Positions 8,269-13,845 of a stretch of 35,546 bases of DNA are shown piece after piece. How positions within the stretch are numbered: position 1 is the first letter of the stretch; each line of letters begins with the position of its first letter. This DNA is from an uncultured Verrucomicrobiota bacterium (GTDB lineage Bacteria > Verrucomicrobiota > Verrucomicrobiia > Limisphaerales > UBA9464): positions 1 through 35,546 of the forward strand of contig CAIMMI010000058.1 of assembly GCA_903842505.1 (NCBI GenBank), given 5' to 3'. The notes under the pieces are model-generated. The model ran no database searches, was not told the origin of the DNA, and saw nothing but the letters and a program-made list of their open reading frames with translations. The translations under genes and the position numbers were made by a program.

Positions 8269-11200
8269 TCAGTGATTGAACAGGAACTCCGGCGAATTCA
8301 GCAGCGACCAGAGCACGTCCTCGACGGCGGTGGCGCGCTTGGCTTCGGGGACGCGGAACGGTGCGGTGGCGGCGTGGATTTCGTCAGTGAGCGGCGGGCG
8401 TCCGTAGGTGGCTAGGTAGAGTTCGGTGACGATGGCTTCGGGGGTGAGCTTGGAATCGGCGAGTTTCCGGGCGCGTCCTTCGGCGCTGCTGATCCGCTTT
8501 TGCAGTCGCGGCGAATTCATCAGGTGGAGCGACTGCACGACGCTGAGTCGGACGTCGCGTTCGCAGGGGCAATCGGACGAGGAGTTGGGGCGACCGAAGG
8601 CGTCGAGGAAGTGGGACTCGATCTTGTACGACCAGGTCTGGGTGGCCCGCGAACCGGGAGGCGTGGCAACGAAGGTGTCCGGCGAGCCGGTGATGTCGGA
8701 GACGGCGTCGTCGAGGACTTCGGCGGGGAGGCGACGGCGATAACCACGGGAGAAGTGGCGCGTGTCTCCGAGGTTGGTGTCGTTGGGACGCGTGGAAAGT
8801 TGGTAGAGGCGGGAGTTGAACAGCGTTCGCAGGAGGTGCTTCAGGTCGTAGCCGTGAGCGGTGAAGTCTGCGGCGAGCGCGTCGAGGAGTTCGGGATGGA
8901 CGCAGGGGTTCGAGAGACGGAAGTCGTCGACGGGTTCGACTAGGCCGCGCCCGAAGCAAAAGGCCCAGACGCGATTGACGAGGGCGCGGGCGAGGAACGG
9001 GTTGTTGGTGGCGGTCGCCCAGTCGGCGAGGGCGAGGCGTGGATCTGCGTCGCCCGCAGCGAGTAGGGGACCGTCTGGTGCGCGCGGGGGCATGACCTCC
9101 CCGGTGACCGGGTGTTTCACAGTGCCGCCCTTGGCGAAATAGAAGGATTCACGGCCAGCCGAGATGGGCGGCGACAGGCCAGCGCCCTTCTGTCGGACCG
9201 GGCCGAAGCAGGCGGCGAGTTGATAGAAGTCTTCCTGGCTCCACTTCTCGTTCGGATGATGGTGGCAGCGGGCGCACTCGAGTCGGACGCCGAGCAAGAC
9301 CTGGGAGAAGAGGGTGGTGATCTCGGGTGGTTCGCGTCGGTCGCGGTACACGACGGCCGGGCCGTCGCGGTGGTTGGCGCCCTCGGCCGTGAGGAGATCG
9401 CGGACGAATTCGTTGTAGGGCCGGTTCACGCGGAACTGTTCGCGGATCCATTGGTCGAGCACGAAGACGGACTTCACTCCGACGCGATCGGAATTGGGGC
9501 GCAGAAGGTCGGCCCAGCGGCCGGCCCAGAAGTCGGCATAGGCGGGGTCTTCGAGCACGCGGTCGATGGCGGTGCGTCGTTTGTCCGGGGACGCGTCGTT
9601 GAGGAAGGAGGCGACTTCGGCTGGCGTGGGAAGCGTGCCGATGGCGTCGATCTTGAGGCGGCGCAGGAACTCGGCGTCGGTGCACGTCTCGGAAGGGAGC
9701 AGGCCGAGGCGTTGGAACCGGGCGTGGGCTATGGGATCGACGAAGTTGTTCGTGGGGAGCTGGGCGTATCGTTCGGGGGGAAGAAGGCGCTCGGCGGGAA
9801 CCAGGACCCGCGTGGCGGCGACCTGCCCCATGTAGCGGGCGACGATGACTGCGGTGCCCGGGTGCTTGCCGGCGGTGAAGCGGCCGTGTTCGTCGACGGC
9901 GGCGAGTTCGCGGTCGCTGGATTCGAAGGCCGCGAGGCGGGTCACGTCGCGGATCGACCCGTCGGAGTAACGGGCGCGGACCAGGAGCCGATGGGCTGAA
10001 TCGGACGGGGCGGTCCGTTCGATGGGGAAGACTTCGACGGTGGCCAGCGCGGGTTCGTTGGTGAGAGCGAACGGGGCACCGTCGCGGATCCAGCGTAGCA
10101 GGATCGAGTGGGCCGTGGAGCCGGCCTCGATGCGGCGGCCGCCTTCGTGCGGAATGCCCAGCAACGGTTTCTGAAGGAGAAGGGATTGTTCAGGCGCCGC
10201 AGGGAAAAGCCGGCGGCCCCGGACGTCCGCGACGATCTCGGCGTGGTCGGATTTCGGGTCGTAGGAGAAGACGGAGAGTTTGAAGCCGTTCTGCCCGTCC
10301 GGCTTCGAGTGGCATCCGCCGGAGGCGCATCCGGCGCGGGCGAGTTGGGGAAGGACGTCGCGGGTGAAGGAAGCGGGTTGCGGATGCCACGGCTCCTTCG
10401 GATTCTTGCCGGGTCCTTGGACGATGACGGGAAGGGGGACCGAAAGCTTGCCGAAGGAGAGGGTGACCGTGTTGGAGCCGTTGCCGCGATGGGCGGTCAA
10501 TTCGCCGGGGCCCGAGGCCTCGAATGGAGCCGCGGAGGGAATGCGTGCCTTGGCGACGTCGGTCAGGTCGTACTCGCGTCCCTCACGACTGATGCCGGTG
10601 ATGCGGTAGCCGAGCGTCGGGGTATCGGCCGAGAGAACGAGTTCTGCCGGGTAAACCGAGAGGCTGGCGAAATTCTCGGGCCGGGGGAATTGGGCTGCCT
10701 TCGACTGGGTGGCGGGCTTGGCGGTTGGAGCTCCGGAACGGGTTGATTTGCGGACCGAGGCCGCGGTCTGGATTGGCGACGCGGCGTTGGTGAAGGGAGC
10801 CGGAGCGAGTCGCGCGAGTTCGCGGCCATCACGATTCCATACGATGACGAGTCCCTGTTGGGTGCCGGCGGCTACCTGCGTTCGGTCCGCGTGGACGGCA
10901 AAGCTCTGGAGGTGGCCGGCAATGGAGGCAATGCGGCGTTCGTCGCCGGAGGCCGAGCTTTGTTCGCCGGTGTGGGTCTTGAGGTTTTCGTATCGGAGGA
11001 TGGCGCCCTCTTCGGTCGCGGCGAAGACCTCACGGCTATCGTTCGGCCAGGCCGTGGCATTTACGGCGTGTGCGTGGTTGCCGAGCGTTACCAGTTTTTC
11101 GCGGGTGGCGATGTCCCAGACGAACAGTTGCTTGTCGGCACCGCCGGAGACGACCTGGGTGGCGTTGGTGTTGAAGCCGGCGGAGAGCACCTGCGCTGTG

Positions 11201-12309
11201 TGGCCTTCGAGAGTGGCCACGGGCTTGGCGTCGGGAAGCGACCAGACGCGAACCAGCCGATCCGCTCCCGCGGTCACGAGGCGGGACGCGTCGGCGCTGT
11301 ACTGAAGTCCGAGGACAGAATCGCCGTGCGCCCGCCAGGATCGGATCCAGCGTCGCGAGGCTACGTCGAGCAGGCGGACCTGGGCCGAAAGGCCGGGGGT
11401 GGCGTCGCCGGCGGCGAGTTGGGTGGAATCGGGGGAGAAGGCGAGGGACGTGATGCGGCCGGACACGCCATGGGTCAGGTCGCCCGCAGGCGTCAGGTCC
11501 GGGAGATTCCAGAGTCGGACCCGGCGGAATCCGGCCGTGGCCGCGAGCCGTCCGTCCGGACTCACGGCAAGCGTCTCGATGCCTTCCGGATGGGCGGTTA
11601 CTGGCGTGGGGACGGGAGGCGTGTTGGTGTGAAGGGCCAGGAGTTGAAGCGAAGGGCCGCGGGCGATGGCGAGAAAGTGGGTCCCGGGAATGAAGGCGAG
11701 GGACTGGACGGGTTGATGGCTGGCGGGGAGCGGTTCGAGGTCGACCTTGGCGATGGGGCCCGCGGCGTCGTCGAGGGCTGAATCATCCCAGGGCATCTGG
11801 TCGTGGACCCACTGTTCGAGCGCACGGATATGGCCTGCCGGAAGTTGCTTCTTCGGCGGCATGTGCGGGTCACCGTCCTTGCGAAGGAGATCGAGCAACC
11901 GCGACTGGGCCGGTTGGCCGGGAGCCGCGACGTTGCCGTTGCCGCCACCCTTGAGGATGGATTCCCGTGAGGTCAGGACGAGTCCGCCCTTGGCCTTGTC
12001 CTCGCGATGGCAGGGAAAGCACTCGGTCGCGAGGATCTGGAGCGGATGTGGAGTCGGTGTCGCTGCCTGGAGCGACAGGGAAGGGAGCAGAAGCAGGAGG
12101 AGGAGCAGCGACTGCCTCCGGACGTCGGCAGCTACGCCTGAGGGTAGCAGACGACGTAAGGAGGCTGGAGGAAGGGATGCTGCGGACTGCCTCCGGACGT
12201 CGGCAGCTACGCCGAAGGGAAGCCGACGACGTGAGGAGGCTGGGGGAACAGCGGGGTGTGCGCCCGCTCCGGTGAGGCGGGAGGCTGGATCGGGGCGGAG
12301 CAGGCGCAT
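8269..12309 (-). CDS. Planctomycete-type cytochrome / WD40 / DUF1549-DUF1553 protein
   Basis: This 1,346-residue protein is read from ATG 12309. An odd N-terminus holds two copies of a REP-like repeat (PPAS...GVAADVRRQS), then a Leu-rich signal core (residues 67-81). Next come a Planctomycete cytochrome c domain with CFPCH (Cys97, Cys100, His101) and DPHMPPKK, and about seven WD40-like blades (residues ~150-505) with repeated VRLW, VRVW and FVWD strands. A bacterial Ig-like segment and the family's second CX4CH site (Cys661, Cys666, His667) in CASGGCHSK follow. The rest is DUF1549 (RLKIDAIGTLPTPAEV, CARCHHHP) and DUF1553 (ALVNRVWAFCFGRGLV, LLNSPEFLFNH). Such proteins are abundant in Planctomycetes and Verrucomicrobia and are thought to handle electrons or heme in the periplasm; the substrate is unknown. 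It lies 34 bases after the oxidoreductase gene, probably in one operon. No DUF1501 partner gene is present here. Confidence 0.9.
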   Translation of the reverse strand: MRLLRPDPASRLTGAGAHPAVPPASSRRRLPFGVAADVRRQSAASLPPASLRRLLPSGVAADVRRQSLLLLLLLLPSLSLQAATPTPHPLQILATECFPCHREDKAKGGLVLTSRESILKGGGNGNVAAPGQPAQSRLLDLLRKDGDPHMPPKKQLPAGHIRALEQWVHDQMPWDDSALDDAAGPIAKVDLEPLPASHQPVQSLAFIPGTHFLAIARGPSLQLLALHTNTPPVPTPVTAHPEGIETLAVSPDGRLAATAGFRRVRLWNLPDLTPAGDLTHGVSGRITSLAFSPDSTQLAAGDATPGLSAQVRLLDVASRRWIRSWRAHGDSVLGLQYSADASRLVTAGADRLVRVWSLPDAKPVATLEGHTAQVLSAGFNTNATQVVSGGADKQLFVWDIATREKLVTLGNHAHAVNATAWPNDSREVFAATEEGAILRYENLKTHTGEQSSASGDERRIASIAGHLQSFAVHADRTQVAAGTQQGLVIVWNRDGRELARLAPAPFTNAASPIQTAASVRKSTRSGAPTAKPATQSKAAQFPRPENFASLSVYPAELVLSADTPTLGYRITGISREGREYDLTDVAKARIPSAAPFEASGPGELTAHRGNGSNTVTLSFGKLSVPLPVIVQGPGKNPKEPWHPQPASFTRDVLPQLARAGCASGGCHSKPDGQNGFKLSVFSYDPKSDHAEIVADVRGRRLFPAAPEQSLLLQKPLLGIPHEGGRRIEAGSTAHSILLRWIRDGAPFALTNEPALATVEVFPIERTAPSDSAHRLLVRARYSDGSIRDVTRLAAFESSDRELAAVDEHGRFTAGKHPGTAVIVARYMGQVAATRVLVPAERLLPPERYAQLPTNNFVDPIAHARFQRLGLLPSETCTDAEFLRRLKIDAIGTLPTPAEVASFLNDASPDKRRTAIDRVLEDPAYADFWAGRWADLLRPNSDRVGVKSVFVLDQWIREQFRVNRPYNEFVRDLLTAEGANHRDGPAVVYRDRREPPEITTLFSQVLLGVRLECARCHHHPNEKWSQEDFYQLAACFGPVRQKGAGLSPPISAGRESFYFAKGGTVKHPVTGEVMPPRAPDGPLLAAGDADPRLALADWATATNNPFLARALVNRVWAFCFGRGLVEPVDDFRLSNPCVHPELLDALAADFTAHGYDLKHLLRTLFNSRLYQLSTRPNDTNLGDTRHFSRGYRRRLPAEVLDDAVSDITGSPDTFVATPPGSRATQTWSYKIESHFLDAFGRPNSSSDCPCERDVRLSVVQSLHLMNSPRLQKRISSAEGRARKLADSKLTPEAIVTELYLATYGRPPLTDEIHAATAPFRVPEAKRATAVEDVLWSLLNSPEFLFNH
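12110..12242. repeat. Two copies of a 58-bp REP-like palindrome in the cytochrome gene's 5' end
   Basis: Copy A (about 12110-12167) and copy B (about 12185-12242) start with the same 29 bases, beginning GACTGCCTCCGGACGTCGGC, and are offset by exactly 75 bases. Each folds back on itself: CCTCCGGACGTCGGC pairs imperfectly with the downstream GCCGACGACGTGAGGAGG-type arm. Both are translated in the same frame, giving the repeat PPAS(S/L)RR(R/L)LP(F/S)GVAADVRRQS before the signal-peptide core. Confidence 0.8.
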
Positions 12310-12343: not shown

Positions 12344-13675
12344 TCAGAGCCCCTTGGTTTCCCAACCCTTGCGGTAGGCGCGGCGCACGTGCTGATTGGC
12401 CGCGGCGACGTTGGTGAACTTGAGCTTCGCGCTGTTCCACTCGAGGAGCTGGTTCGGGAAGCGCGTGGCCACGGAACCGAGCAGCACGCTTTCGGTGAGC
12501 GGACCCGAGTAGTCGAATCCGGCCGAAGTGGTTCCCTTGCCGGCGACGGCGTCGATGAACTCGTGCCAGTGGTTGGCCGAGCCGACGTCGGGGTATTTGA
12601 ATCCGTCATACTTCCCGGCCGGGAGCAGGATCGGACGTCCGACGTGCGGCACGACCATGACGCCCTGAGTGCCGATGATGATGGAGCCTTGGTCGGGAAG
12701 ATCGACCTTGCCAAGGAGGCTGACGACGTCGGCGGGTGGGCGCTTCCGACCGTCATACCAGGTGACCGGGACGGTTCCTGGGATGGTGAACGGAGTGGCC
12801 GGGTAGATGTACTCGATGATGGCGTTGGTGGCCCAGGAGTGGGCGCTCGGGGCGGCGCCGAGGGACTTGACGGAGATCGGGGCGGTGAGGCCAAGCGCGC
12901 TGAACACGGGATCGAAGATGTGGCATCCCATGTCGCCGAAGGTTCCCGTGCCGAAGTCGAGCCGGCGACGCCAGTTGCCGGGATGATACCATCCCTGACC
13001 GATGAAGGGGCGATCGGTGCAGACGCCGAGCCAGAGGTTCCAGTCGAGGCCAGTGGGCACGGGGTCCTTGCGGTCGGGCATGGAACCGTTGTCGCCCCAC
13101 TCCTTCGAGCTCCAGGTGTGGACCTCACGGACCTTGCCGATGACGCCATCCTGCACGAGGCGTGTCGCCAGGCGGTACTCGGTGGCCGAGTGGATCTGGA
13201 TGCCCATCTGGGTGACGAGCTTCTTCTGCTTGGCGACCTCGGTGAGGCGCCGGCACTCATAGAGGTCGTGGGTGAGGGGCTTCTGTCCGTAGACGTGGAT
13301 GCCACGTTGCATCGCAGCCATGCCCTGCGGGGCATGCATGTGATCCGGGGTGGAGACGTTGACGGAGTCGATCTTCTCCTTGTCGAGGAGTTGGCGGTAG
13401 TCGGCGTAGACCCGGGCCTCCGGGAACTTCTTGCGGAACTCGGCGGTGCGGGTGGCATCGACATCGGCGACCGCCACCATGCGGACGGACTTGTGGGAGG
13501 CGATCTCGTTGAGGTCGGCCCAGGCCATGCCACCGGCGCCAAAGCTGGCGTGGAGGACCTGGGAGGAGGGTGGGCGCGCGATCAGGTCGCGCATGATGAA
13601 CGGCGTGGCGAAGGCCGCCCCGGCGGTGGTGCGCAGGAAGCGTCTTCGCGACGCCTGCAAGGGAAGGGGATTCAT
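12344..13675 (-). CDS. Tat-exported Gfo/Idh/MocA family oxidoreductase
   Basis: The start is ATG 13675, giving 443 residues; an upstream ATG at 13714 adds 13 residues before the signal. Residues 9-15 (SRRRFLR) are a twin-arginine motif followed by TTAGAAFATPF. A Rossmann fold begins around residue 46 (GAGGMAW) with VRMVAVADVD ending its second strand. STPDHMHA and YGQKPLTHD (a QKP variant of the usual EKP motif, containing the catalytic Lys) match the family. The C-terminal half has the family's open sheet, including a run with GDMGCHIFDP typical of the PVC-type subgroup. Members oxidise or reduce sugars or sugar-derived acids with NAD(P); the substrate cannot be told. It is the first gene of a minus-strand set with the large cytochrome protein, and TatA and TatC are encoded 5 kb away on the other strand. 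Confidence 0.92.
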   Translation of the reverse strand: MNPLPLQASRRRFLRTTAGAAFATPFIMRDLIARPPSSQVLHASFGAGGMAWADLNEIASHKSVRMVAVADVDATRTAEFRKKFPEARVYADYRQLLDKEKIDSVNVSTPDHMHAPQGMAAMQRGIHVYGQKPLTHDLYECRRLTEVAKQKKLVTQMGIQIHSATEYRLATRLVQDGVIGKVREVHTWSSKEWGDNGSMPDRKDPVPTGLDWNLWLGVCTDRPFIGQGWYHPGNWRRRLDFGTGTFGDMGCHIFDPVFSALGLTAPISVKSLGAAPSAHSWATNAIIEYIYPATPFTIPGTVPVTWYDGRKRPPADVVSLLGKVDLPDQGSIIIGTQGVMVVPHVGRPILLPAGKYDGFKYPDVGSANHWHEFIDAVAGKGTTSAGFDYSGPLTESVLLGSVATRFPNQLLEWNSAKLKFTNVAAANQHVRRAYRKGWETKGL

Positions 13676-13845
13676 GGTGATGGGCAAGTCTCTGCGGGTG
13701 GCTGGGAGATTCAAGTTTCAAGGCAGGGAGAATCCGGGGAGGCGTGAGTTCACCGGGGAGCGGTGATGCGATGGTCCGGGAGTGGACCGCGGGAATTTTG
13801 GGGTTAATCCGTGTTCGACCTTGCCAAGCCGCGGTCTTTGATTGA

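Follow-up and report, generated by a model that had tools for sequence, protein, structure and literature searches.

REP palindromes that appear to be translated in the export leader of a Verrucomicrobiota cytochrome-type protein

Palindromic repeats in bacteria are usually regarded as extragenic. The DNA analysed here, a stretch of 35,546 nucleotides from an uncultured member of the Verrucomicrobiota (the window), raises the question of whether such repeats have entered a gene for a cytochrome-type protein and are translated with its signal peptide. The features concerned are the following.

8269-12309, minus strand: gene for a PSCyt1 - WD40 - PSCyt2 - PSD1 cytochrome-type protein, 1346 aa from the ATG at 12309
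12307-12309, minus strand: start codon (ATG), conserved in the orthologue from G006; no further canonical start follows it ahead of the hydrophobic core
12085-12108, minus strand: signal-peptide hydrophobic core, LLLLLLLL, immediately preceded by the REP-encoded RRQS
12110-12168: palindrome copy 1, nearer the signal-peptide core, with units at 12114-12135 (minus) and 12144-12165 (plus); residues 48-67, ASLRRLLPSGVAADVRRQS
12185-12243: palindrome copy 2, distal from the core, with units at 12189-12210 (minus) and 12219-12240 (plus); residues 23-42, ASSRRRLPFGVAADVRRQS
12110-12248: unit of 75 bp in two tandem copies; GTAGCTGCCGACGTCCGGAGGC is the sequence of both minus-strand REPs
12344-13714, minus strand: GFO/IDH/MocA oxidoreductase gene, upstream, 34 nt before the cytochrome ATG and co-oriented with it

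The frame from the ATG at 12309 is open through both palindromes into LLLLLLLLPSLSLQA, and there is no ATG, GTG or TTG codon between that ATG and the core. The initial annotation, which placed the palindromes between the ATG and the core with the frame kept, is borne out on this point. Judged from the sequence, the REP palindromes appear to be translated as part of the cytochrome export signal.

The two palindromes belong to a direct repeat in exact register (12110-12173 and 12185-12248, spacing 75) with 91% identity over 64 bp; the six bases that differ alter several residues. The palindrome motif has two matches in the window versus 0.01 expected. DNA folding gave -17.3 kcal/mol (z -5.1) for copy 1 and -14.7 (z -3.0) for copy 2, and RNA folding of the coding strand gave z values of -4.1 and -3.7, respectively. 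Thus, the earlier description of two palindromes of about 58 bp, exactly 75 bases apart, holds, but each of them is itself a tail-to-tail (TT) pair of GTAG-tagged REP hairpins with the tags inside (for the name and definitions, see Di Nocera et al. 2013, PMC3733652), so that there are four REP hairpins and not two. Likewise, the addition is in frame as described, but it amounts to about 45 residues (23-67, from the two copies and the spacer) instead of about 50. The REP consensus is GTAG-C-N-G-M-C-GA-S-GTNA-S-GA-GGC-N-G, and an Rfam search of the window gave no match.

A GTCC loop is present in nine of 322 sampled REPs, and the exact 22-mer GTAGCTGCCGACGTCCGGAGGC occurs among these 322 only in the two window units. 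Because this 22-mer is absent from the other sampled REPs, the second dimer in the window would most simply have arisen by tandem duplication, not by two insertions. One could also imagine that the tandem copy is a misassembly of a repeat, given that the genome is in 362 contigs, probably as a metagenome bin, and that some of these end in REP arrays. However, the two copies are not identical, as indicated above, and a REP also occupies this position in an independent genome and a public record; an assembly artefact is therefore very improbable.

The initial annotation had suggested an amplified extragenic element, and the family to which these units belong is indeed a large one. With up to two mismatches allowed, the 5.2-Mb genome contains 522 copies of the 22-base unit, as compared to eight matches for a reversed control pattern, so the unit is far from single-copy. 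Within the genus, five of nine genomes have counts of 522, 275, 171, 101 and 86, and the other four are near the control. Of 146 genomes in the order, 100 contain one or more matches (one mismatch) and several contain more than 400, the distribution being patchy. Contigs C256, C131 and C100 start or finish in REP arrays; therefore, REP clusters probably break the assembly and are undercounted.

As for location, 60 contig pieces picked regardless of REPs (712 kb, about 81% called coding by a simple codon-usage method) contain 106 units, of which 93 are intergenic, three touch a gene edge, ten are in possible upstream extensions and none is inside a called gene, which bears out the extragenic part of the suggestion. 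Convergent gaps are enriched for REPs (29 of 63 versus 68 of 424, p 3e-7). Neighbouring REPs form 82 TT, 83 HH and 40 HT pairs, and the TT gaps are tight (mode 10; 0-13 in 81 of the 82). The family therefore resembles the GTAG-type REPs in having a hairpin unit of 20-40 bp, an unpaired end tag, a high dispersed copy number, a mainly extragenic location and HH/TT dimers.

The pattern of substitutions in 88 distinct units also points to a hairpin. The loop-closing pair covaries between C-G and G-C (97% Watson-Crick versus 56% when shuffled) and stem pair 6-23 among C-G, A-T and T-A (83% versus 38%), and such covariation is what a constrained hairpin looks like. DNA folds of single units give a clear hairpin in two of three types. 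Each base of the GTAG tag is kept in 177-187 of 188 units, found with a search pattern that itself included the tag. Tandem G-A/A-G positions are also part of the hairpin, as is a GTNA loop closed by the covarying pair, a combination that might form a very stable DNA or RNA loop.

Orthologues of the cytochrome gene display an informative pattern. The closest one, in G006, is 88% identical, and its leader (MRPLRQNGTSRPNGAGASPSPAAVADDIRRRWLVVCLLLLPFAAHA) is also found in a public record, JAIXZE010000083.1 (locus L092). This leader aligns with the window over the ATG and some 50 bases after it, and where the window has its REPs it carries, in the same frame, a single REP-like unit, GTAGCCGACGACATCAGGAGGC, which reads AVADDIRRR. 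REPs are absent from the next two orthologues, in G002 and G007, in which the leader likewise begins at an ATG upstream, 27-32 residues ahead of the core. Measured from the nearest start to the core, the n-region has 66 residues in the window gene versus a median of 10 and a maximum of 34 in 54 other orthologue loci, a few of which are the same species in two collections. These observations agree with the proposal that the element entered a coding region and lengthened its export signal, and no orthologue with a matching N-terminus encoded by non-palindromic DNA was seen in the comparison. One orthologue, L152, was considered as a REP-bearing leader and rejected; its upstream REP is behind a stop codon and is extragenic. 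The best explanation, with a probability of roughly 0.8, would be that a GTAG REP, single or as a dimer, entered the cytochrome n-region in frame, was later tandem-duplicated, and is read through from the ATG at 12309 and tolerated.

We also scanned 1.78 Mb (322 units in 117 clusters) for REP clusters that are in an open frame and followed by coding sequence, which gives a lower bound for translated cases, and found four further convincing clusters besides the one in the window. In a PQQ-propeller gene (L314), MNPLP is followed by three in-frame REPs, each with VAADVRR, and then by VAPLLTTLLTLALG, and there is no ATG, GTG or TTG between the REPs and the core. Its relative in G006 has one REP (SVAVDVRRR), and those in G002 and G007 have none; in the latter two, a GTG-AAA start is found where the REP stands in the REP-bearing species. 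The gene for a prepilin-like protein (L208, 15754-15873, contig C21) has three REPs in its leader up to the cleavage motif G↓FSLVELL. Its G006 counterpart has a REP dimer (RPVTSSTTFVAADVRRL) and shares the start context GCGGTTGCCATG with our genome; the G002 counterpart has no REP. The neighbour of the prepilin gene encodes a secreted protein (L208, 16875-16980, C21) with three REPs before and within the signal peptide, the core of which contains the REP residues RLLTSAAT. A GTG between REPs 2 and 3 could be the start, and therefore, at least one REP would be translated; G002 and G007 have ordinary leaders in this gene. The fourth cluster (L219, 3174-3273, contig C66) consists of three tandem REPs with a 13-codon period (VAADVRRQSPSDP) in mid-chain of a 1239-aa secreted or membrane protein, and it is missing from three orthologues (G007, G003 and G011). 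In-frame insertion into a gene that has an orthologue lacking the REP is thus seen in the cytochrome gene, the PQQ gene and the middle of L219. Four open-frame clusters, L204 16328, L263 6885, L240 16644 and L291 12490, were set aside as having a canonical start after the REP.

Export leaders hold four of the five apparently translated clusters, the window included, in a small sample that was partly picked for REPs and compared after the window case had been seen; by our estimate, n-regions account for no more than a few per cent of the coding DNA. Array periods are divisible by three in nine of ten steps in the translated clusters versus 40 of 123 elsewhere (per locus, four of five, p ~0.05), a supporting comparison that is partly circular because open frames were selected.

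The main rival explanation is that the REPs are untranslated and lie in a short leader between the oxidoreductase and cytochrome genes, with translation beginning at a non-canonical CTG (~12108) and a GGAGG in the REP serving as the Shine-Dalgarno sequence. The REPs do end in AGGAGG or CGGAGG, G006 has an in-frame TTG in the arrangement AGGAGG-6 nt-TTG, and the absence of REPs from called genes in the 106-unit sample points the same way. In addition, Di Nocera et al. (2013, PMC3733652) judged many N-terminal REPs elsewhere to be misannotated, untranslated sequence. However, this explanation needs a non-canonical start in two genes, as neither the cytochrome nor the PQQ gene has an ATG, GTG or TTG before the core, and it would leave the signal peptides without a basic n-region; the REP-free relatives also begin at a distant upstream ATG. 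Called starts, which are crude, are not enriched for Shine-Dalgarno sequences (AGGAG at 0.9% versus 1.9% at internal ATGs), and this weakens the idea that the REPs supply one. Finally, it is inapplicable to the prepilin, the leader of which must be translated upstream of G↓F. We consider it improbable.

If the REP or dimer was instead inserted in frame and is read through, the course of events was most likely as follows. Tail-to-tail GTAG-type dimers would have spread through the genome mainly between genes, with few entering genes, and one REP (or dimer) would have entered the cytochrome n-region before the split from the closest sampled relative. One of the forward frames meets a stop codon in the conserved TAG of the tag; the REP would have stayed in the forward frame GTA-GCN, which reads VAADVRR and avoids this stop. 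In our species, the 75-bp (25-codon) unit would then have been duplicated in tandem, the way in which REPs, once present, presumably multiply elsewhere in the genome. The ribosome would begin at the ATG at 12309 and read through all four REPs, and the REP-encoded Arg-Arg directly before the core would supply the positive charge of the n-region. Such an insertion could be tolerated because little is required of an n-region beyond a basic and hydrophilic character, to which the REP peptide contributes Arg-Arg. We infer translation, export and neutrality in this scheme, as well as the mechanism of transposition. In G007, many REPs have GTGG in place of GTAG and thereby lack the TAG stop; this replacement was also reported for GTAG-20 of Opitutus terrae (PMC3733652).

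A variant of this scheme, which differs only in the role of selection, would have the REP peptide (ADVRRR/Q) kept as a useful basic n-region and not just tolerated. In two species, the cytochrome leader and the PQQ leader both have the REP in the same frame, ending in RR beside the core, and the REP-bearing PQQ genes have no start at the site of the GTG-AAA in their REP-free relatives. However, the differences between the two window copies look unconstrained, sister species differ in copy number and only a handful of loci are involved, and we think that a selected role is rather unlikely.

Translated repeats as such are not new. Intragenic GTAG REPs are known, and O. terrae, also in the Verrucomicrobiota, is the richest in them (PMC3733652); this 2013 survey was the sole relevant record in a literature search on Verrucomicrobia and REPs. 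The GTAG REPs described there are similar to ours in being short, high-copy hairpins with an unpaired GTAG end, often in TT/HH dimers of unlike units, mostly located in convergent or co-oriented gaps and sometimes translated in frame. However, the survey stresses DNA-repair and RNA-binding proteins, whereas the translated copies here are mainly in export leaders, and our stem and loop (CNGMC-GA-S-GTNA-S-GA-GGCNG) were likened to GTAG REPs by general features, not by family sequence. The classical translated case, to which we compare ours by description, is that of the Rickettsia palindromic elements (RPEs), which are also in-frame palindromes in protein genes. A product carrying such an insert is known to be made, whereas here the product is predicted from sequence; RPEs are 105-146 bp long and occur in many conserved proteins (PMC2229807), and the literature found describes no bias toward export leaders. 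In Yersinia, a YPAL/RU-2 MITE forms part of the predicted signal peptide of YPO1552 (Delihas 2007, PMC2759123; reviewed in PMC2229807), and so, a small mobile sequence again encodes part of a predicted leader. That case is a single locus with a 168-bp element in a putative new protein, whereas here short REP units were added to the leaders of conserved proteins with REP-free orthologues.

While intragenic REPs in O. terrae, the RPEs and the MITE-derived signal peptide were already known, what is new here is an order-wide Verrucomicrobiota REP family, its repeated occurrence in leaders of the Sec and prepilin types, and the series of none, one or several units in sister species. In at least four export leaders, members of a family that otherwise avoids genes stand in frame, which suggests that small repeats can remodel the export tag of a protein and leave its gene intact, and that wholesale dismissal of N-terminal REPs as misannotated starts is unwarranted. 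The passage from none to one to several units makes it possible to test the n-region as a safe harbour, as well as the effects of REP peptides on export. Tentatively, translated REPs may even persist preferentially in export leaders, with the VAADVRR frame providing a ready basic n-region that can capture an upstream start, and the family may repeatedly rebuild Sec and prepilin leaders in the Verrucomicrobiota, a generalization that we consider possible but doubtful.

REPINs and RAYT-REP systems are similar to this family in that inverted REP pairs form larger hairpins in dispersed populations, but here no linked RAYT was found, and the pair is a tight, tail-to-tail one with the tags inside. 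The two Y1_Tnp genes of our genome have long open frames, of 359 and 379 aa, and terminal repeats of another kind. No flanking REPs were found at these two genes or at 29 loci of relatives, within flanks of up to 1.5 kb, in an incomplete genome and a subset of Y1 loci; one lone REP unit is ~500 bp from one of the 29 (L183). Therefore, the RAYT association that the initial annotation had in mind was not found in our genome or in the relatives searched, and RAYT-driven transposition would be expected by analogy. The two long Y1_Tnp genes of our genome, L031 and L032 (contigs C116 and C21), have terminal repeats with GACTGACCCCATTGC or a related form, and by sequence, they look like TIR-flanked tyrosine transposases and not REP-linked RAYTs. 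In addition, L193 (G002), positions 1-1433, contains near-identical repeats of 159-269 nt near a small Y1_Tnp gene, which are perhaps a different mobile repeat family.
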